Shown here: positions 1,813 through 16,484 of the stretch, piece by piece
How positions within the stretch are numbered: the first letter of the stretch is position 1
How the letters are laid out: every line of letters starts with the position of its first letter
Origin: a virus
Direction: 5' to 3' (one strand)
IMG/VR virus record: IMGVR_UViG_3300032238_000350
Coordinates: 1 to 35,235 of that record
DNA length: 35,235 nucleotides
Program-made: the position numbers and the translations under genes
The notes under the pieces: model-generated
Database searches by the model: none
Told to the model about the DNA's origin: nothing
What the model saw: only the letters and a program-made list of their open reading frames with translations

Positions 1813-2988
1813 ATGGCAGGTTCTGCTGTTACAGGTACTGGTGCCCTAGCTGGTGCACCTACCGCATATTCAGGTTCGAATAGTCAGCTTTCTCAGGCTA
1901 TTCAGACCATCTGGTCGAAGGAAATTCTGTTCCAGGCGATGCCAATTCTTCGCTTTGAGCAGTTTGCAGTTAAGAAGACAGAACTAGGTGTATCACCTGG
2001 TCTGCGTGTTAACTTCCTTCGTTACAAGAACTTCAGCGTGGACCCAACTCCACTAACTGAAGGTGTCCGTATGACAACCAACGCTCTGACCGCAGAGCAG
2101 ATTGCTATCACCGTTGCTGAGCACGGCTATGCAGTTGCAGTTTCAGAACTGCTACTGAACGCTTCGTTCGACGACATCATGGCTTCTGCTTCACGTCTAC
2201 TTGGTCGCCACATGGCACAATACCTCGACGTACAGGCTCGTGACACCCTATCGGCTGCTACTTCAGCAACCTTTGGTTACGACCGTACAAAGAAGTGGGA
2301 TGGTTCCGCTTGGGTTGCAGATACTTCAAACGTATTTGCTAACTACAACGAAGGCCAGGTTGCTACTTCGATTGCTGACCTAGATGGTGGCTTCAAGCTA
2401 ACCACTGGTGCAATCAAGGACTCAGCACTTGTTCTTGCTGGCAAGAACATTCCTCGCATTGGTGAGACATACGTTCAGTTCATTCACCCTAAGCAGTCTC
2501 GTGACCTTCGCTCGAACCCAGAGTTCATCGAAGTAACCAAGTACGCTGCTCCAGGTAACTTCATGCTAGGTGAAATCGGTCGTCTATACGACGTCGTATT
2601 CATCGAGACCACTCAGGTCAAGAAGTTGGCTGCATCACAGGCTGGATACACCACCTCGACTCTGGCTGGCAACCTTGCTGACCAGACCTCGTACACTGGT
2701 GCTAACAAGCCTAAGGTTAACTCTAACCCAGGTTCAGGTGGAAACCCAGCATCAGCTGACTTCACCGCTGAAGCTGGTTACCTAACCGGTGCTACTGGCA
2801 ACGCTGCTGACGTATACGAGTCAATCATGATTGGTGACAACGCATTTGGTCACGCAATCGCCCTTCCAGTTGAGCTACGTGACGGTGGTGTTCTAGACTT
2901 CGGTCGTGAGCACGCACTAGCATGGTACGCCATCTGGGGTCTCGGTATCATTACCGACCAGGCTATCAACAAGGTTTACACCAACTAA
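1813..2988 (+). CDS. Major capsid protein (N4-gp56-like, HK97 fold)
   Basis: The 391-residue product matches the N4-gp56 type of major capsid protein. It has an N-terminal segment reading IQTIWSKEILFQAMPILRFE, then PGLRVNFLRYKN, then a region where residues alternate around TPLTEGV, and a C-terminal GVLDFGREHALAWYAIWGLG segment. This protein forms the icosahedral shell. A good ribosome site, AAAGGAG, lies before the ATG. Codon choice is strongly biased to C-ending codons for Tyr, Asn, Asp and Phe, unlike the AT-rich fibre genes downstream, which fits very high expression. A Ser/Gly/Asn-rich insertion at about residues 280-320 is probably a surface loop. A GC-rich hairpin lies just after the stop. 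Confidence 0.9.
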   Translation: MAGSAVTGTGALAGAPTAYSGSNSQLSQAIQTIWSKEILFQAMPILRFEQFAVKKTELGVSPGLRVNFLRYKNFSVDPTPLTEGVRMTTNALTAEQIAITVAEHGYAVAVSELLLNASFDDIMASASRLLGRHMAQYLDVQARDTLSAATSATFGYDRTKKWDGSAWVADTSNVFANYNEGQVATSIADLDGGFKLTTGAIKDSALVLAGKNIPRIGETYVQFIHPKQSRDLRSNPEFIEVTKYAAPGNFMLGEIGRLYDVVFIETTQVKKLAASQAGYTTSTLAGNLADQTSYTGANKPKVNSNPGSGGNPASADFTAEAGYLTGATGNAADVYESIMIGDNAFGHAIALPVELRDGGVLDFGREHALAWYAIWGLGIITDQAINKVYTN

Positions 2989-3006
2989 TAGCCAAACCTT
3001 CGTCGA

Positions 3007-3032
3007 GGGGGGCGGTCTTAGGACCGCTCCCC
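3007..3032 (+). promoter_or_regulatory. GC-rich hairpin after the capsid gene, without T-tract
   Basis: GGGGGGCGGTC pairs with GACCGCTCCCC through a TTAG loop, giving an 11-bp stem with one G-T wobble. The following bases (CAACACAAAC) contain no T run, so it should not be an efficient intrinsic terminator. It may protect the 3' end of the capsid message or set processing or partial termination, which would help explain high capsid output relative to downstream genes. That role is inference. Confidence 0.6.
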
Positions 3033-3068
3033 AACACAAACAAATAACCCAACAAGGAGAAAAATATC

Positions 3069-3449
3069 GTGGCAAATAAACCAACTAGTCCACAGGACAC
3101 TACAGGTCGCGCAGTTGAAGAAGCTGCAAAGCGTAACGCAGCTGAACTAGCTGCAAGACAAGATGAAATTGCATTATCCCGTCAGGCAGAAGCTATCAGT
3201 CTTGAGAATGACGTTTTTGACCCAAAGAACCCAGACCGGCCAATTCTGATTGATGAGATTGAAGAGGTGGGCGTAACTGTAAACAACAGCAAGGTTGTTA
3301 TCAGGACCATTTCAGATATTGAAGACATGACTTTTGGTGTAATCAATGGAGCCCCACAGAATTACACCTTTAAGGCTGGAGTTAAATACTCAGTACCAGT
3401 AGAAATCGCAGCTCACCTAGAGCGTCTCGGTTATATCTGGAGACAGTAA
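3069..3449 (+). CDS. Small head-associated protein, function unknown
   Basis: The 126-residue product starts at GTG with a good ribosome site (AAGGAG nine bases upstream). The first 50 residues are charged and Ala-rich and probably helical. The second half, from about residue 60, looks like a compact beta domain with VNNSKVVIRTISDIEDMTFG and ends in HLERLGYIWRQ. This C-terminal pattern is familiar from small proteins next to capsid genes in actinobacterial and environmental phages, but I cannot name a function. Its place after the capsid gene and before a strong terminator suggests it belongs to the head operon, possibly as a head completion or decoration protein. Confidence 0.6.
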   Translation: MANKPTSPQDTTGRAVEEAAKRNAAELAARQDEIALSRQAEAISLENDVFDPKNPDRPILIDEIEEVGVTVNNSKVVIRTISDIEDMTFGVINGAPQNYTFKAGVKYSVPVEIAAHLERLGYIWRQ

Positions 3450-9911: not shown

Positions 9912-10478
9912 ATGCGTGGAGCAAAACTGCAAGGCAGGTTCAACTTAGATTACGAAAGTAAGTCTATGTATGAAGGTATTGCCGAGGACCTTGGTGGTAC
10001 AGTTGGTGTTGAAGTTGACTGGTTTCGTTGGCAGGATTACTACCTAGAAGAAAATTACGCTGATATTGTAGACCCTATTTATGACGTGTCTTCTTCAGAG
10101 CCTAATAAGGGTAGAAGATGGATGCTTCCATTTAAGATGCCTGTAGTTATGGCACAGTTTGTTCGTGGTACTAATATCATGAACCAACGTGGTTTCTATG
10201 TTACAGATACTCTTAGACTTGTCATTAATATTGGTGATGCTCAGCGTCTTTTACCGTCTTTGATTACAGACTCAAACAACCATATTAAAGATAGAATTAT
10301 ATTTAGAGGCGAAGTATTTGTTCCTACTCGTGTTTTGCCTCGTGGTTCATTTGGTTACAACTATGCAGTTCTTACAATTGACTGCAACCAGCTAAACCCA
10401 GATGAGCTTGTTAATGACCCACAGTTCCAGACATACGCTTCAAAGTCTGTACCTAACCCAAGGATTACTAATGGCTAA
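9912..10478 (+). CDS. Head-tail connector-like structural protein
   Basis: The 188-residue product has no recognisable catalytic motif. It contains DWFRWQDYYLEENYADIVDP, then a beta-rich stretch with RWMLPFKMPVVMAQFVRG and DTLRLVINIGDAQR, and ends PNPRITNG. The mix of short strands and its position between fibre genes and neck genes fit a connector or head closure protein. Similar proteins of unknown role are found in the neck region of large actinobacterial phages, but I recognise no exact family. A GAAAGG ribosome site lies before the ATG. The stop overlaps the next small gene by eight bases. Confidence 0.45.
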   Translation: MRGAKLQGRFNLDYESKSMYEGIAEDLGGTVGVEVDWFRWQDYYLEENYADIVDPIYDVSSSEPNKGRRWMLPFKMPVVMAQFVRGTNIMNQRGFYVTDTLRLVINIGDAQRLLPSLITDSNNHIKDRIIFRGEVFVPTRVLPRGSFGYNYAVLTIDCNQLNPDELVNDPQFQTYASKSVPNPRITNG

Positions 10479-10623
10479 CCCAAGAATGAAAAGAATAAAA
10501 ACAAACGAAACCAATACTAGAGATAATATTGGACGTGGCGGAAAAGTTGTACTAGACCGTCACAAAGGCAATGTTCCTAAAAAGCCTTTGAAAATGAAAA
10601 ACCTACAAAAGAAGGGCAGCTAA
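10471..10623 (+). CDS. Small basic protein, 50 aa
   Basis: ATG at 10471 overlaps the end of the upstream gene by eight bases. A longer reading from 10402 would lie inside the upstream gene, so it is not favoured. The product is Lys- and Arg-rich (MANPRMKRIKTNETN, then NIGRGGKVVLDRHKGN) and ends KNLQKKGS. It is the first of ten tightly coupled tiny genes. No function is recognised. Charge and context suggest nucleic-acid or capsid contact, but this is inference. Confidence 0.7.
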   Translation: MANPRMKRIKTNETNTRDNIGRGGKVVLDRHKGNVPKKPLKMKNLQKKGS

Positions 10624-10931
10624 TGGCTGAAAAGAAAAAGACTCATGCAAAAGGGAAAGACCCTCGTCTAGTACGAGCTGGAGTATCTGGCTATAACAAG
10701 CCTAAAGCTACTCCTAATGACCCTAGACATTCACACGTAGTTGTTGCCAAAGAAGGCGACCAGATTAAGACTATCCACTTTGGTCAGCACGGAGTTAAGG
10801 GCTCACCAAAAAAGGAAGGCGAATCTGAAGCTTACCGCAAACGTCGTGAATCATTCAAGGCTCGTCACGCTAAGAACATTGCTAAAGGCAAAATGTCTGC
10901 AGCATATTGGGCTAATAAGGTTAAATGGTAA
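10623..10931 (+). CDS. Small basic phage protein ending in an AYWANKVKW motif
   Basis: The 102-residue product starts on the last base of the upstream stop. It has a Lys-rich N-terminus, a central beta segment (DQIKTIHFGQHGVKG) and a conserved-looking C-terminus with SFKARHAKNIAKGKMSAAYW. The C-terminal pattern of a basic (R/K)ARH helix followed by an aromatic-Trp end recurs in small proteins of many environmental phages, some fused to prohead proteases. The function is unknown. The protein is probably virion-associated or DNA-contacting. Confidence 0.75.
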   Translation: MAEKKKTHAKGKDPRLVRAGVSGYNKPKATPNDPRHSHVVVAKEGDQIKTIHFGQHGVKGSPKKEGESEAYRKRRESFKARHAKNIAKGKMSAAYWANKVKW

Positions 10932-11059
10932 TGCCATTTAAATCTCAAGCACAACGAAAGTGGATGTATGCCAATGACCCATCTATGGCAAAAAAATGGG
11001 AAAAGCATACTCCTGAAGGAAAAAAACTTCCTAAAAAGGTGAAGAAGAAAAAGAAATGA
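10931..11059 (+). CDS. Tiny basic protein of the MPFKSxAQRxWMYAN family, 42 aa
   Basis: The reading frame runs from ATG at 10931 (one-base overlap with the upstream stop) to TGA at 11057-11059 and overlaps the next ATG as ATGA. The product starts MPFKSQAQRKWMYANDPSMA and ends in a Lys-rich tail after KHTPEGKKLPKK. This motif is one I recognise from many phage genomes, where it is a small stand-alone protein of unknown role. Family similarity makes it a real gene despite its length. It is too short for ordinary gene cutoffs and easily missed. Confidence 0.85.
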   Translation: MPFKSQAQRKWMYANDPSMAKKWEKHTPEGKKLPKKVKKKKK

Positions 11060-11301
11060 CTAAAGTAACTGCAGGTGGATTAAAGCACAAGGTCACTAAG
11101 AAAAAAGAAGACCGTGGTGCTGGAGATAAGGGCGACATTATTGTTGAGCAGACTAGCAAGTCTGGCAAGAAAGAACGCATGAATCTTACTAAGCTTGCTG
11201 GTTCTAAAACAGTAAAACAAGGCGTAAAAGCTACTAAGGAATACCACAAGAAGCATCCAGAAATTGGTAAGGGAAGACGAAATGGCAGCAAAAAAAAGTA
11301 A
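11056..11301 (+). CDS. Small Lys-rich protein, 81 aa
   Basis: The start overlaps the previous stop in an ATGA junction, and the end overlaps the next gene by twenty bases. The product begins MTKVTAGGLKHKVTKKKEDR and ends RRNGSKKK, with about one third basic residues. A middle segment (KGDIIVEQTSKSGKKERMNL) may form a short hairpin. No family is recognised. It belongs to the small basic gene run and is probably co-translated with its neighbours. Confidence 0.7.
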   Translation: MTKVTAGGLKHKVTKKKEDRGAGDKGDIIVEQTSKSGKKERMNLTKLAGSKTVKQGVKATKEYHKKHPEIGKGRRNGSKKK

Positions 11302-11470
11302 GTCTAAAGTCAACGAGGCTGGCAACTATACTAAGCCTGAGCTTCGTGCAAGACTTTTTAAAAAGATTAAAGCCGGAACTAAGGGTGGAGACCCAGGTGA
11401 ATGGTCAGCTAGAAAAGCTCAATTATTAGCAGCTGAATATAAGAAGGCTGGCGGAGGCTACAAGAACTAA
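11282..11470 (+). CDS. Small basic protein with GNYTKP and WSARKAQ motifs, 62 aa
   Basis: ATG at 11282 (MAAKKSKSK) is preferred to TTG at 11264, because MA starts are the rule in this run and the TTG has no ribosome site. The product contains NEAGNYTKPELRARLFKKIK, then GTKGGDPGEWSARKAQLLA and ends YKKAGGGYKN. This arrangement is a recurring conserved phage family of unknown function that I have seen in many environmental phages. A compact helical fold is likely. The start overlaps the upstream gene, and the stop overlaps the next start by one base. Confidence 0.85.
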   Translation: MAAKKSKSKVNEAGNYTKPELRARLFKKIKAGTKGGDPGEWSARKAQLLAAEYKKAGGGYKN

Positions 11471-11712
11471 TGGCTAAAGCAAAGTCCCAGCGTTCACTAG
11501 ATAAGTGGACTAAGGAAGAGTGGACAACCTCAGATGGTAAGCCGTCTAAGGGTAAAAAGCGCTACCTTCCTAAAAAGGCTTGGGAAGACCTTACTCCAGC
11601 AGAAAAAGCAGCCACTAATCGCGCAAAGAAAAAGGGTGATGGCGGTAAAAAGGGCAAGCAGTTTGTTCCACAACCTAAGAAAATTGCTAAGAAGACAGCG
11701 AGACACAGATAA
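11470..11712 (+). CDS. Small basic protein with SLDKWTKEEW and KKIAKKTA motifs, 80 aa
   Basis: The product starts MAKAKSQRSLDKWTKEEW, continues with TSDGKPSKGKKRYLPKKAW and ends PKKIAKKTARHR. This order (SL-x-x-WT, GKPS, RYLP, A-rich helix, KQFV-PQPKKIA) matches a small conserved phage family of unknown function that I associate with a DUF (possibly DUF5872, not verified). Members are often near structural genes. It overlaps both neighbours by one base. The start is unambiguous. Confidence 0.85.
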   Translation: MAKAKSQRSLDKWTKEEWTTSDGKPSKGKKRYLPKKAWEDLTPAEKAATNRAKKKGDGGKKGKQFVPQPKKIAKKTARHR

Positions 11713-11993
11713 TGGCAGAAACTAAAAGATTTGGCCCATACAAGGGCTCTAAGGCCAATGGAGGCCGTCCAATCTATGTTTACAAGACTAAAGGCAAAGA
11801 CGGTAAATGGCACACTACAAGCAAGAATAAGGCTCGTGCGGAGTATGAGGAGAAAAATGGCAAATTACCCCGTAATGTTGATGTAGACCACAAAAATAAT
11901 AAACATGCTGATGACCGTAAGTCTAACTTACAGCCTATGAAGCATGGGAAAAATACTGCTAAAGAAAACAAGCGGAGAGCGGGAAAGAAATAA
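11712..11993 (+). CDS. Small HNH endonuclease-like protein
   Basis: The 93-residue product has the HNH core at residues 56-86: VDVDHKNNKHADDRKSNLQP with His60, Asn72, then His78 and Asn81. HNH enzymes are metal-dependent nucleases with a beta-beta-alpha-metal fold. The N-terminal part (FGPYKGSKANGGRPIYVYK) is a short beta segment seen in phage homing or packaging-associated HNH proteins. Because it sits inside a row of small genes and is joined to both by one-base overlaps, it looks like a resident rather than a recent free-standing homing insertion. A role in packaging or genome processing is possible but not shown. Confidence 0.75.
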   Translation: MAETKRFGPYKGSKANGGRPIYVYKTKGKDGKWHTTSKNKARAEYEEKNGKLPRNVDVDHKNNKHADDRKSNLQPMKHGKNTAKENKRRAGKK

Positions 11994-12142
11994 TGGCTAA
12001 CGAAATTAAACCTAAAAAAGTTAAAAATACTAAACCTAAGGTTAAAGGTAGTCCAGTTACTAAGCCACACAATGCTGGCAAGGTAAGAACCAAAAAAGCA
12101 GCTAAACCGGGCAATATGCCTTCAAATTATGGAGTTAATTAA
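11993..12142 (+). CDS. Tiny Lys/Pro-rich protein, 49 aa
   Basis: The frame runs from ATG at 11993 (one-base overlap with the upstream stop) to TAA at 12140-12142, two bases before the next ATG. The product begins MANEIKPKKVKNTKPKVKGS and ends NMPSNYGVN, with many Lys and Pro residues. No family is recognised. Support comes from coupling, MA start and uniform composition with neighbours. It is too short for usual cutoffs. Confidence 0.65.
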   Translation: MANEIKPKKVKNTKPKVKGSPVTKPHNAGKVRTKKAAKPGNMPSNYGVN

Positions 12143-12144
12143 TT

Positions 12145-12273
12145 ATGGCTAAATCATGTAGTTGTGGCGTCTGTCCAGGTTGTAAGGCCTCTAAGAACCC
12201 AAATATGAAGCGTAAGCAAACACTTGCTGTTCGCAATAAGCACACTAAAACTAAAGCAAAAGGCGGAAAATAA
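12145..12273 (+). CDS. Tiny cysteine-rich basic protein, 42 aa
   Basis: The frame runs from ATG at 12145 to TAA at 12271-12273 and overlaps the next ATG by one base. It starts MAKSCSCGVCPGCKASKNPN, giving a Cys-x-Cys-Gly-x-Cys-x-x-Cys-Lys cluster that could bind zinc, followed by a Lys/Arg-rich tail. The same cluster reappears at the start of the product of 12448-12714. The function is unknown. Confidence 0.7.
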   Translation: MAKSCSCGVCPGCKASKNPNMKRKQTLAVRNKHTKTKAKGGK

Positions 12274-12455
12274 TGGCTACATGTGAAGTTTGTGCTACTG
12301 AAGAAAACATCGTACACTCAGGTGTAGACGCTCTACTTCTTGGCATTGAAGGTGCTGAGACAGGTAAAATTTGCTACGATTGTGCAAATAAAAGAATCCC
12401 TACAAACTGTGGTTGCGGTAATTGCGACTGCAAGAAAGAAGAAAATAATGGCTGA
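12273..12455 (+). CDS. Small zinc-ribbon-like protein, 60 aa
   Basis: The product has Cys-x-x-Cys near the N-terminus (MATCEVCATEENIVHSG), a second Cys-x-x-Cys (ICYDCANKRIP) and a C-terminal CGCGNCDCKKEENNG. The two Cys pairs fit a small zinc ribbon, and the extra C-terminal cysteines may bind another metal. Unlike its neighbours it is acidic to neutral in the middle. The role is unknown. The end overlaps the next gene by eight bases. Confidence 0.7.
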   Translation: MATCEVCATEENIVHSGVDALLLGIEGAETGKICYDCANKRIPTNCGCGNCDCKKEENNG

Positions 12456-12714
12456 ATGTAAGTGTGGTAAGTGTGCCGCTTGTAAGAAGCGTATGGCTGA
12501 TAAGAAAAAGGGCGGTAAGAAGATGCCTCCTTGGATTGGTTCAAAGGCTGACGAAAAGCAGGATAAGAAGCTTGAAAAGGGCATGACTCCAGCTCAGAAG
12601 AAGAAGTTTGAGGCTGAGGACAAGAAGCATGACAAGAAGAAGGGCATGTCTAAGAAAGAAGACATGAAGGGCGACAAGAAGATTGCTGACAAAATTAAGT
12701 CAAAAAAGAAGTAG
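12448..12714 (+). CDS. Lys-rich protein with N-terminal Cys cluster, 88 aa
   Basis: ATG at 12448 is chosen because the product then begins MAECKCGKCAACKKRMADKK, parallel to the 42-residue protein upstream. A reading from 12340 would overlap the upstream gene heavily. The Cys-x-Cys-Gly-x-Cys-x-x-Cys-Lys cluster may bind zinc. After PPWIGSKADEKQ the protein is almost entirely Lys, Asp, Glu, Met and Gly, probably helical or disordered. It is the last gene before a terminator. The function is unknown. Confidence 0.75.
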   Translation: MAECKCGKCAACKKRMADKKKGGKKMPPWIGSKADEKQDKKLEKGMTPAQKKKFEAEDKKHDKKKGMSKKEDMKGDKKIADKIKSKKK

Positions 12715-12735
12715 TTCCAACACAAACAAAGTTTA

Positions 12736-12761
12736 CCCTGCCAAAAGCAGGGTTTTCTTTT
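12736..12761 (+). terminator. Rho-independent terminator after the small-gene run
   Basis: CCCTGC (12736-12741) and GCAGGG (12747-12752) form a 6-bp GC-rich stem with loop CAAAA, followed by TTTTCTTTT. It closes the small basic gene cluster. Confidence 0.85.
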
Positions 12762-12830: not shown

Positions 12831-13028
12831 ATGTCTTCTCCAGAATTTAAGCCCTGGTGGACGAAGGTAAACGAATATTTAGCATTCCAAGAGAAACAAC
12901 AGTTTACTCAAGGAGCTAATGGTTTGAACCCTAACCTTCGCCACGATGTATTGATGGGTATGCTTAGCTCAGGCTACATAAACGATAAATTTGAGAGACC
13001 GCAATCCCATACAGGTAAAAAGAGCTAA
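12831..13028 (+). CDS. Small protein of unknown function, 65 aa
   Basis: ATG at 12831 follows AAAGGA at good spacing. The product begins MSSPEFKPWWTKVNEYLAFQ and is mildly basic and helical, ending SHTGKKS. No family is recognised. It opens the neck and tail operon and is coupled to the next gene by a TAATG overlap, so a small neck or assembly factor is plausible. Confidence 0.6.
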   Translation: MSSPEFKPWWTKVNEYLAFQEKQQFTQGANGLNPNLRHDVLMGMLSSGYINDKFERPQSHTGKKS

Positions 13029-13339
13029 TGGACATACTTACTAAAGCACTTAAAGATGCAGTTCATAGACTGGCACGTTCAGCTACCCTTGAACTGCGTA
13101 ATCAGGCTATGAGGGATGGCTGGGATTTTCAGGTTGCTAATTCACTGACTGTGGATACTAAAGGTGGAAACGCCACCGTTACTGTTGACGATAAATTTGC
13201 CGCACAAGCCTTTGACCATGAGTTTGGTACTCAAAACCACCAACCTAAAGCAACTGTTAGAAAAGCTGATAACAATAGAGTCTACCAAGACCAACTTGCT
13301 ATTCTTTTCGATGACTACTTAGGAAAGGCGATGAAATGA
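13028..13339 (+). CDS. Tail completion or neck protein (HK97 gp10-like)
   Basis: The 103-residue product has an N-terminal helix (ALKDAVHRLARSATLELRNQ), a beta region with ATVTVDDKFAAQAFDHEFGT, and then QPKATVRKA. The order of helix, beta hairpin and E-F/Y-G-T followed by a P-x-x-x-R patch is characteristic of HK97 gp10-type tail completion proteins. These proteins act where neck and tail join. The gene is placed between unknown 65 aa and 226 aa proteins, just before the sheath, with one-base and four-base overlaps. The HK97 gp10-like call is by pattern only. Confidence 0.6.
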   Translation: MDILTKALKDAVHRLARSATLELRNQAMRDGWDFQVANSLTVDTKGGNATVTVDDKFAAQAFDHEFGTQNHQPKATVRKADNNRVYQDQLAILFDDYLGKAMK

Positions 13340-14016
13340 CCTTTCTATTAAGTGAAGATGATGCTATGAGAAAGCGTCTTCAAGGCATGACTGTTCAAGA
13401 CCAAAAGTCAGATGGTGACGATGTTGAGCGTCAAGTACGCGCATACTTTGGGCAACCAGACCAAGAAATCACTCCACAGCTCTATCCTTATATTACTATT
13501 GACTTATTAGAGGTTCAAAGAGATAATATGCGAGAAATGCGCGGAACAGTATCTCCAAGCTATTTAAGCAAAGATGACTTTGACCCTGAAACCGAAGGCT
13601 TTGAAATGGAAATGCCTATTCCGGTTTATTTAACATATCAAATTACAACCTATTCTCGTCATCCTCGTCATGACCGTGCTGTTCTATCTCAGTTAATGAC
13701 TGACAGACTACCAAGATTTGGCTATCTAGAAGTTGTAGAGAAGAGTGCAACTGTTGGTGATACCACCACAGTTACCTCTACTTTCCGACGTATGGATGTC
13801 ATAAACGTTACAAAGCGTGACGTAACCGAACAGGCAAAGCGTCTGTTTGTTAACTCAATAACCGTGCGTGTCTCATCCGAGATTGCGCAAGGACTATACC
13901 GAAATGTCCACAAAGCACTAGAAGTACAAATTGATAACCCAACTGAAGAACGGGCTGGTGGAACTACATCTGACCCGTACTTTATTGGAATCAATGAAGG
14001 TGTTACTCTTATATAA
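13336..14016 (+). CDS. Tail terminator-like protein
   Basis: The 226-residue product begins MTFLLSEDDAMRKRLQGM and has a central beta region (PIPVYLTYQITTYSRHPRHD) and then MTDRLPRFGYLEV. This layout resembles tail terminator or completion proteins, which cap the tail tube and sheath in contractile phages. It starts with an ATGA overlap and sits directly before the sheath gene, the usual location. Related phage proteins of this length are usually annotated only as structural. No enzymatic motif is seen. Confidence 0.55.
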   Translation: MTFLLSEDDAMRKRLQGMTVQDQKSDGDDVERQVRAYFGQPDQEITPQLYPYITIDLLEVQRDNMREMRGTVSPSYLSKDDFDPETEGFEMEMPIPVYLTYQITTYSRHPRHDRAVLSQLMTDRLPRFGYLEVVEKSATVGDTTTVTSTFRRMDVINVTKRDVTEQAKRLFVNSITVRVSSEIAQGLYRNVHKALEVQIDNPTEERAGGTTSDPYFIGINEGVTLI

Positions 14017-14057: not shown

Positions 14058-16484
14058 ATGACGACATATAATCGTCCTGGAGTTTATATCAATGAACTCC
14101 TATCGTCAAGTGCACCAGTTACTGGTGTGGCTAGCGCAACCTCAGCTGGTGCAGTAATTGCTGCATTTGCTCAGGGACCTGACACCGTAACCCGCGTTAC
14201 TTCGTGGTATGACTTCGTAAAGAAGTTCGGTGGCTATAACAAAGCATATCCAGCATCATTCTCAGTTGGCTCATTCTTTAAGAATGGTGGAACCGAGCTT
14301 TACGTAAAGCGTGTTCTTCCGTCCATTGCTAAGAAGGTTGCTAAGGTGAATCTTCCTTTTACAAGTTCTGTAGTAGGAAACACCTCTGGTACTCTTTGCA
14401 CAATTGCTGCAAAGCACCGCGGTATTGATGGAAACAACATTCGTGTAAAGGTTACTTCATCAAAATCTATTCGTGAAGATGGCTACTTTGACATCAGCGT
14501 ATACTATGAAGCTGGTAGAGCAGACACTTTCACTGGTGACGTAGTTTCTGCAAACGGTGGAGATGACATTCTTGTAGAGCAGTTTAATGGTGTACTATTC
14601 CATGACCCTCTATCAGGTGACTACGCTCCTGCTGTTCTTGAGTTTGGCTCAAACTACATCAAGATTCTTGAAGGCGCTGTAACTGAGTACAACTTAAACG
14701 GTAACGTAATTGACCCAGTAGTAAATTACTCAGTTGCAAAGAATGCACTTTACATTCCAAGCTCTGATTTACTTGGCCTATCTGGTGCTCCAGACCCAGA
14801 AGTTGCTCTGACCTATTCAGACTACACTGGTGATGTTGTATTTGACCCAACCGTAGTTGACTCTGTTACTACTGCAACTATTTCTGGCGTATACGGAAAT
14901 GGAACAAAGGTAACTTATGTTGCTAATAGCTCATTCAGCATTGGTTCATTGGTTACTATTTCTGGACTAGCTCCTGCAGGGTATCTTGCATCTCCTGCAG
15001 TTCCAGTTACAGATGTTGTTACATCTATTAGTGCTGCAATTAAGGCTGCTAAGGGTGATGGAACTTACATCACTTACCAGGGTGGACCTGCACTATCTGT
15101 TGATGACCTAGTAACAACTACCGGTTCATCAGTTACCGCTTATAACGTAACTAATAAACCTGTTGTTAGCGTTACTGCTGCTGTTGTAGACCGTGCGTTT
15201 ACTGCAGTAACTGGAGACGGAAGCAAGTACACATACACCACCGCATCTGGACACAACATTGCTGTAGGAGATTTGGTTACTATTACTGGAGCTTCTGTAA
15301 GTGCTTACAACGTAACAGATGCAGTTGTAACTGATACTGCAAGCACTACATTTAAAGTTGCCGGAAGTACTTCAACTGCTGCTACTGTTACAAATGGTAA
15401 GATTAACCGTCCTGCTAAGTTCACAGTTGCTGGTACTTCAAGCGACAGCGGAACAGTTACTAGCGGTACTGCAACTCGTCCTACTGGATTTAAGGTTGCT
15501 AATACTACTACTGCAACTGTTGAAGATGCTTCAGGTGTTGCTACTCGTACAGTTAACGTTGCGGACACATACGTTATTGATGACCTTGAACTATTCAAGG
15601 AATTTGAAAACATTGACCGTCCACTAGTGTTCTTCCTTCCAGACGTAACCAACAAACTTGGTTCATGGGATGCATCGCACTGGGTATACAACGCGCTTAT
15701 TGACTGGGCAGATAGCACAAACTCTGGTCTAAAGCACTTTGTAGTAGTTGAAACTGCTCCAGACGTTAGTTCAGTTAACCTAGCTCTTCAGGCTTCTGGT
15801 GACCTTTCTAAGTCAAGTCGTGCAGCTGTTTACTACCCTCACGTGTACATCACTGACCCAGTAGGCCGTTCAGGAGCTTCTGTTCGTAAGATTGGCCCTT
15901 CAGGTGCAGTTGTAGGACAGTACTTGTCTACCGACAACCTAGTTGGTCCATTCAAGTCTCCTGCAGGTATCCAGAACAAGATTGTAGATGCAATTGCTCT
16001 TGAGAAAGCATTCAGCCCAGCTGAACTTGACGCTCTTAACAGCGGTGTTGCTACTGACGGAACTAAGGACAACAGAAACGTTGTAAACGCTATCCGTAAC
16101 CTTCCAGGTGCAGGTATCGTAATCATGGGTGCTCGTACTCTTCTTCAGGATGGAACTGCTAACCGCTACATCAGTATGCGTCGTAGTTTGACCTATATTG
16201 AGAAGCGCCTAAATGACCTAGCACAATTTGCTGTATTTGAAAACAATACAGAAATTTTGTGGTCTCGTCTAAGAACTGTTCTAAGTGCATTCCTAAATGA
16301 CTACCGTAACCAGGGTGGTCTTCGTGGTGCAACTATCGAGCAGTCATTCTACGTTAAAGTTGACGAAGAAAACAACCAGGCATCAGATATTGCTGACGGA
16401 GTAGTTCACATTGAAATTGGTGTGGCTCTTGAATACCCAGCAGAGTTTGTTGTCATCAACCTCAGTCAAAAGACTGCAGAATAA
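14058..16484 (+). CDS. Tail sheath protein with beta-repeat insertion
   Basis: The 808-residue product has sheath hallmarks. The N-terminus reads TYNRPGVYINELL, a phage sheath signature. Residues 27-95 include AVIAAFAQGPDTVTRV and NGGTELYVKRV. The C-terminal domain (about 505-808) contains PGAGIVIMGARTLLQDG, YISMRRSLTYIEKRL and ALEYPAEFVVINLS. The sheath contracts around the tube to drive injection. It is longer than the common 450-680 residues because of a Thr/Val/Gly-rich insertion at about residues 271-500. AGGAG lies before the ATG. Codon bias to C-ending forms fits high expression. Confidence 0.92.
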   Translation: MTTYNRPGVYINELLSSSAPVTGVASATSAGAVIAAFAQGPDTVTRVTSWYDFVKKFGGYNKAYPASFSVGSFFKNGGTELYVKRVLPSIAKKVAKVNLPFTSSVVGNTSGTLCTIAAKHRGIDGNNIRVKVTSSKSIREDGYFDISVYYEAGRADTFTGDVVSANGGDDILVEQFNGVLFHDPLSGDYAPAVLEFGSNYIKILEGAVTEYNLNGNVIDPVVNYSVAKNALYIPSSDLLGLSGAPDPEVALTYSDYTGDVVFDPTVVDSVTTATISGVYGNGTKVTYVANSSFSIGSLVTISGLAPAGYLASPAVPVTDVVTSISAAIKAAKGDGTYITYQGGPALSVDDLVTTTGSSVTAYNVTNKPVVSVTAAVVDRAFTAVTGDGSKYTYTTASGHNIAVGDLVTITGASVSAYNVTDAVVTDTASTTFKVAGSTSTAATVTNGKINRPAKFTVAGTSSDSGTVTSGTATRPTGFKVANTTTATVEDASGVATRTVNVADTYVIDDLELFKEFENIDRPLVFFLPDVTNKLGSWDASHWVYNALIDWADSTNSGLKHFVVVETAPDVSSVNLALQASGDLSKSSRAAVYYPHVYITDPVGRSGASVRKIGPSGAVVGQYLSTDNLVGPFKSPAGIQNKIVDAIALEKAFSPAELDALNSGVATDGTKDNRNVVNAIRNLPGAGIVIMGARTLLQDGTANRYISMRRSLTYIEKRLNDLAQFAVFENNTEILWSRLRTVLSAFLNDYRNQGGLRGATIEQSFYVKVDEENNQASDIADGVVHIEIGVALEYPAEFVVINLSQKTAE
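14868..15557 (+). repeat. Beta-repeat insertion in the tail sheath (residues about 271-500)
   Basis: Three degenerate copies of about 50-60 residues share G-x-G-x-x-x-x-Y followed by a G-x-L-V-T-x-x-G segment and Y-N-V: NGTKVTYVANSSFSIGSLVT, GDGTYITYQGGPALSVDDLV and GDGSKYTYTTASGHNIAVGD. After these come three shorter units of about 23 residues beginning TFKVAGS, KFTVAGT and GFKVANT. Such repeats usually form surface beta domains and would decorate the outside of the sheath. Confidence 0.65.

Follow-up and report, generated by a model that had tools for sequence, protein, structure and literature searches.

Why would a virus place eleven consecutive genes of at most 102 codons in one coupled row, and what might their products do? 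The question is raised by positions 10471-12714 of the IMG/VR virus record IMGVR_UViG_3300032238_000350, of which positions 1 to 35,235 (the window, 35,235 nucleotides in full) were analysed. With somewhat more confidence than doubt, we read the run as a set of late, head-associated, probably nucleic-acid-binding small accessory proteins that enter the head while it is being assembled or packaged. The reading is drawn from the location of the genes, from two head proteins to which the domain of gene 2 is fused, and from the Rho_N domains and histone-H1-like tails that accompany the bacterial relatives of genes 5 and 6.

The run consists of eleven plus-strand open reading frames (ORFs), each starting with ATG and 42-102 codons long. 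A first-pass annotation of this DNA had counted ten; its size range stands, but the ORF list holds eleven. Its claim of translational coupling is borne out, as nine of the ten junctions overlap, six of them by the single nucleotide of TAATG and three by 4, 20 and 8 nt, and the tenth is a gap of 2 nt. The longest coupled chain of ATG-initiated ORFs of 40-110 codons is 11 at this locus. No such chain exceeded 2 in 500 dinucleotide-preserving shuffles or 3 in windows sampled clear of the locus, and the reverse strand reached 1. Scans of IMG/VR with genes 6, 11, 2 and 10, followed by iterated profiles, recovered relatives of all eleven frames from other viral contigs, and searches of IMG/VR and of phage isolates agree with the earlier statement that several motifs recur across environmental phages. 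The frames are under purifying selection, with pN/pS (the ratio of nonsynonymous to synonymous differences) well below 1: family medians are 0.13-0.45 and the lowest values reach 0.01, the figure for gene 10 (afterwards found in 23 loci) coming from a single pair. The closest pair of gene 6 relatives shows 39% synonymous difference despite 98.8% amino acid identity.

Summed over the run, the products comprise 749 amino acids with 23.5% lysine, 4.9% arginine and a net charge of +142, against 4.0% lysine in the large ORFs of the same window. Nine of the eleven begin with MA, much as had been noted. The first-pass description of uniformly basic products rich in lysine and cysteine holds for lysine and for most of the set (ten products are basic), but gene 10 is acidic (isoelectric point 4.5) and cysteine is restricted to genes 9, 10 and 11, with 4, 8 and 4 residues. 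Each of these three carries a C-x-C-G-x-C-x-x-C-like cluster (CSCGVCPGC, CGCGNCDC and CKCGKCAAC, respectively), a pattern that suggests metal binding by the products of 12145-12714.

Gene 2 (10623..10931, 102 amino acids) is a free-standing domain of the Tlr6F/DUF5754 type. It matches phrog_7595 at 3.7e-37; weaker matches cover part of a minor head family of 1338 positions and part of another family of 278 positions. Compared directly with DUF5754 (PF19058), it scores only 10.6 bits (E 0.61) against a curated cut-off of 27.4. The connection runs through two intermediates that exceed the cut-off, namely a member of the gene 2 alignment from locus L045 (49 bits, 6.4e-13) and a protein of phage NCTB (43.8 bits, 2.5e-11). 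On these alignments gene 2 is a relative of DUF5754/Tlr6F rather than a curated member. An AlphaFold2 model of gene 2 (mf4aa48581e85; mean predicted local distance difference test score, pLDDT, 79) was compared with models of viral proteins and matched a Tunisvirus protein (E 0.026, probability 0.98), ICP1 ORF125 and XkdF-like proteins.

A profile of gene 2 retrieves the NCTB protein (1.2e-15), a protein of Vibrio phage GR11A (4e-10), residues 535-604 of the portal of Aphanizomenon phage CL131 (1.3e-9) and residues 188-261 of ICP1 gp125 (5.5e-9), whereas the best E-value among 200 shuffles per target was 0.22. In hhalign comparisons gene 2 reached 96.7% with ICP1 gp125 (180-261) and 95.6% with the CL131 portal. 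ICP1 gp125 is the predicted procapsid protease (PMC9040626); its XkdF protease domain lies at 36-160 and the gene 2-type domain forms its C-terminus at 180-261, so that the homology covers its last ~80 residues. The Peptidase_S78_2/XkdF protease domain is absent from gene 2, which matches only this C-terminal part. With the ICP1 C-terminal domain as query, tblastn led to the CL131 portal (ORF012, 1393 amino acids), in which Phage_portal_3 (60-419) is followed by the gene 2-type domain (535-604), InPase (631-752) and a Mu F-like domain (991-1103). ORF012 was among the 23 proteins detected in purified CL131 virions by liquid chromatography-tandem mass spectrometry (PMC6293099). Gene 2 is thus, by profile comparison, homologous to a domain borne inside the procapsid on a maturation protease and on a portal. 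Tlr6F/DUF5754 has previously been recorded in polinton-like viruses, giant viruses, virophages and some phages (PMC4642659, PMC12220804); the literature that we found on the family does not connect it with the head proteases or portals of phages.

Two observations concern these relatives. Just 3' of the CL131 portal gene lies a gene for an HU-family DNA-binding protein (L223:9127-9414). The GR11A gene (L224:3998-4354) is labelled "Peptidase_S78_2 domain-containing protein", yet its product consists of the gene 2-type domain only and has no Pfam match; judging from its sequence, the label is probably a misannotation inherited from fused proteases of the ICP1 type.

Genes 5 (11282..11470, 62 amino acids, phrog_17747) and 6 (11470..11712, 80 amino acids, phrog_14910) correspond to the N-terminal half (GNYTKP...WSARKAQ) and the C-terminal half (SLDKWT...RYLP) of a DUF5872-like protein. 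They are nearly always neighbours, overlapping by 1 nt in 67 of 113 loci and by 4 nt in 17, and in 9 loci they are fused into a single protein of ~130 amino acids. Together they align colinearly over both halves of the DUF5872-like protein (alignment A5). Neither gene alone matches DUF5872 (PF19197) in Pfam. The fused phage forms cover most of that model, with E-values of 1.6e-5 to 1.7e-4 in three of four, but their scores (14.1-25.9 bits) all fall under the curated cut-off of 27.5. A profile built from bacterial sequences alone finds gene 6 at 2e-22 and gene 5 at 1e-20; none of 2,200 shuffles did better than 0.016, so the match is not an artefact of lysine content. Alignment thus indicates that genes 5 and 6 are a split form of the DUF5872-like protein, which is otherwise known from giant viruses, bacteria and phages and which in the window is cut between its halves into two coupled genes. 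The model of the fused protein (mean pLDDT 80) is, like that of gene 2, of moderate confidence.

The fused DUF5872-like form occurs in 52 bacterial genomes. In many Alphaproteobacteria and Pseudomonas it runs on into Rho_N domains (confirmed in Pfam for the Phaeobacter protein and judged by eye for the others), and other bacterial forms end in histone-H1-like tails of lysine, alanine and proline (L183, L216). Bacterial DUF5872-like genes outside prophages, often with one of these two extensions, occur widely among Alphaproteobacteria, Pseudomonas, Corallococcus and Hymenobacter (L170-L221). Three apparently longer phage fusions, in L058 (431 amino acids), L074 and L050, were rejected as artefacts of stop-to-stop frames: the real product in L058 is the 129-amino-acid fused gene, and those in L074 and L050 are separate genes.

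Relatives of genes 2, 5 and 6 are found in isolates that infect Roseobacter, Pelagibacter, Puniceispirillum, Methylophilales, Synechococcus and Vibrio, and in these otherwise unrelated phages they likewise sit amid virion genes. Isolates with free-standing forms include Roseobacter phage CRP-5 and Lentibacter phage ICBM2 (gene 2), Methylophilales phage MEP401 (genes 5 and 6) and HMO-2011 (genes 2, 5 and 6). In a P22-like case they lie between tail accessory and stabilisation genes, surrounded by coat and tail genes; in the Methylophilales phage MEP401 they adjoin terminase and portal; in L031 they follow the major head protein and precede the tail fibres; in L069 and L051 they stand beside terminase and a virion structural protein, respectively. 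Genes 5 and 6 lie within ~4 kb in 27 of the 80 loci seeded with gene 2, a count biased, like all co-occurrence counts here, by the retrieval of loci with run genes as queries.

Under the reading that we favour, the proteins would be produced jointly at a late stage of infection. The domain of gene 2 would dock onto the head or onto DNA within it, and the basic proteins, with genes 5 and 6 acting as a complex, would bind nucleic acid. Loading would take place while the head is assembled or the DNA packaged, and the proteins may be delivered along with the genome in the manner of T4's small basic internal proteins. The internal (ejected) T4 proteins IPI, IPII and IPIII are small, basic, made late and encoded beside head functions (PMC7697877). 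The predicted run proteins are similarly small, mostly basic and encoded in a late region near head functions, but they have no sequence relation to the T4 proteins and the window lacks a prohead protease gene between its portal-like and capsid genes. The first-pass suggestion that the products are packaged DNA- or capsid-binding proteins therefore gains indirect support, from the fusion of gene 2 relatives to a head protease and a virion-detected portal and from the Rho_N and H1-like company of genes 5 and 6. The data can be explained without condensation of the whole genome; roles in head assembly or as ejected proteins fit as well.

Several points weigh against this reading. N-terminal capsid-targeting and protease cleavage sites of the T4 type are not evident in the eleven proteins, whose N-termini are lysine-rich (MA(K/E)...) and which contain only two [LIV]xE triplets. 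The fusions place the gene 2 domain in the phages that carry them, and neither a binding partner nor packaging of the free form follows. The Rho_N and H1-like tails suggest nucleic-acid binding by the DUF5872 part without proving it. Models of gene 2 and of the fused 5+6 protein have no meaningful match among solved structures, from which novelty of the fold does not follow. In our literature search, virion proteomics of relatives was found for CL131 only, with nothing on the free-standing small proteins and nothing in the cobavirus paper. Finally, a single role does not fit every member, since the product of gene 10 is acidic and that of gene 7 is an HNH nuclease.

The same neighbourhoods and fusions would also be expected if the products were helpers of late assembly or packaging that stay outside the finished virion; their targets would be the portal, terminase, scaffold or concatemeric DNA, and the HNH protein would serve as a packaging nuclease. 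Head-region HNH proteins aid packaging in some phages (HK97 gp74), the run contains such a gene, and terminase or portal lies nearby in MEP401 and L069. However, the run in the window adjoins neck genes instead of terminase, and the CL131 portal with its gene 2 domain reaches virions, though as a portal it would be expected there anyway. We regard such helpers as an unlikely but serious alternative to proteins loaded into the head.

What surrounds the run, and how constant is it? On its left lies a gene for 188 amino acids (9912..10478, plus strand), which is kept in relatives and has no match in PHROG and Pfam searches; by tblastn its homologues in related contigs share 34-95% identity and always stand upstream of the small genes. 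On its right, three conserved plus-strand genes (12831..14016; 65, 103 and 226 amino acids) precede the tail sheath (14058-16484, identified by a PHROGs match); they are called neck genes from their position, family matches being absent. Between gene 11 and these genes, a terminator-like hairpin with a T-rich tail was picked up by a pattern scan at 12735..12753 on the plus strand; the scan gave 6 hairpins in the region against 3.7 expected from shuffling, and this one is a consensus match only. The first-pass annotation had described a unit bounded by neck genes and a terminator. The hairpin and neck-like genes agree with this downstream, but upstream gene 1 overlaps the 188-amino-acid gene by 8 nt and no boundary is seen, which makes the run resemble the 3'-terminal part of a longer late transcription unit.

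In ~90 contigs with these flanks, the small genes sit between the 188-amino-acid homologue and the 65/103/226 genes ahead of the sheath. The comparison of locus order that had been proposed thus upholds the slot and not the order or content within it, which vary among related contigs: 3-4-5-6-7-8-9-11, 3-8-1-2-4-5-6-7-11, 5-6-2-7-9, or 3-4-11 alone, with gene 11 mostly last and directly ahead of the neck genes. With its fixed flanks and varying members and order, the locus is a constant position in the late region whose complement of small genes changes. Such turnover among close relatives, the small size of the genes and the limitation of genes 1, 8, 9 and 10 to few loci could also mark a moron-like island of host-takeover or counter-defence genes for which the late operon is simply a safe place to reside. 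Scans with defence-system models, however, picked out only gene 7, as a weak match to a homing endonuclease; genes 2, 5 and 6 are strongly constrained and recur in very different phages, always amid virion genes; and the gene 2 domain is fused to protease and portal. An accessory island of this kind is accordingly a shade less probable to us than the packaging helpers.

A head-associated role would matter beyond this locus. That none of the products has a known role, as first stated, needs amending inasmuch as gene 2 is related to Tlr6F/DUF5754 and genes 5 and 6 to DUF5872; it stands inasmuch as both families are of unknown function, Tlr6F having been described as shared by widely differing viruses but without any clue to what it does (PMC4642659). 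A gene 2-type domain in a head protease and a virion-detected portal offers a concrete, testable role for Tlr6F, and the split DUF5872 pair offers a head-linked hypothesis for a second orphan family. The haptophyte virus CpV-BQ1 has annotated proteins of both families. Tentatively, and as a possibility that we rate below an even chance by some distance, the two families may form one head-furnishing toolkit common to tailed phages, giant viruses and polinton-like viruses, in which a docking domain, attached to a protease or a portal or present as a small free protein, would be accompanied by a nucleic-acid-binding partner. If true, this would tie two orphan families found on both sides of the divide between phages and eukaryotic viruses to head assembly or genome packaging, the first hypothesis of a function for them. 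DNA-associated virion proteins of PBCV-1 were considered as a giant-virus link and dropped, as the abundant small basic A437L is MC1-like (PMC3281028). Small basic accessory proteins of virions or heads are already known as a kind; what is potentially new is the head link for two families shared with giant viruses. The IMG/VR scans with genes 2 and 6 gave at least 600 matches each, which indicates that the free forms are very common; the proteins are likely abundant in aquatic viruses, though annotated just as hypothetical.

Gene 7 (11712..11993, 93 amino acids, phrog_4578, 24 loci) is the HNH-like product anticipated by the first-pass annotation: at 26.4 bits against a cut-off of 24.8 for PF13392, it is assigned to the HNH_3 nuclease family, and it weakly matches a homing-endonuclease model in the defence-system scan (PADLOC). 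Its presence inside the run and the shuffled gene order between contigs might evoke a selfish element that the nuclease mobilises, with the remaining genes as passengers, which is very improbable given that HNH is missing from most loci with genes 2, 5 and 6 (24 versus 113-123 loci) and that passengers are not expected to show pN/pS down to 0.01. Apart from these HNH and homing-endonuclease matches, scans of the single run proteins against Pfam, NCBIfam and PADLOC gave nothing, and sequence searches of the PDB with the run proteins returned no credible relative. Matches to Y_Y_Y (gene 7), SF3a60, FANC_SAP and a ribonuclease were discarded as being under cut-off.

The remaining members are as follows. 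Gene 1 (10471..10623) encodes a basic protein of 50 amino acids with relatives in 8 loci, the window included. Gene 3 (10931..11059, 42 amino acids, 50 loci) carries the MPFKSQAQRKWMYANDP motif; its start was set at 10931 because relatives start with MPFKS, and it matches phrog_1375 weakly (8e-4). Gene 4 (11056..11301, 81 amino acids, basic, 69 loci) had no meaningful E-value in library searches, and no isolate phage searched by tblastn matched gene 3 or gene 4. Genes 8 (11993..12142, 49 amino acids, 8 loci, pN/pS 0.39-0.46) and 9 (12145..12273, 42 amino acids, 13 loci, pN/pS 0.17-0.42) are basic, and gene 10 (12273..12455) encodes 60 amino acids. The run closes with gene 11 (12448..12714, 88 amino acids, 36% lysine, 87 loci), whose counterpart in locus L098 has a second, C-terminal cysteine cluster.

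Other genes are seen around the gene 5/6 pair in relatives. In L074 a small DUF6321 (KAFCARM-type) protein (2944-3267, 1.5e-19) lies between the pair and an open-ended protein of 1003 amino acids, and DUF6321 also occurs inside a 345-amino-acid protein of a Prochlorococcus phage; from these two settings, it may be another small domain that serves both free and as an appendage. Upstream of the pair in L035, L058 and L075 are proteins of 1500-1600 amino acids that are open at the contig end. The large L075 protein matches DarB-like polyvalent proteins, which in P1 are internal virion proteins.

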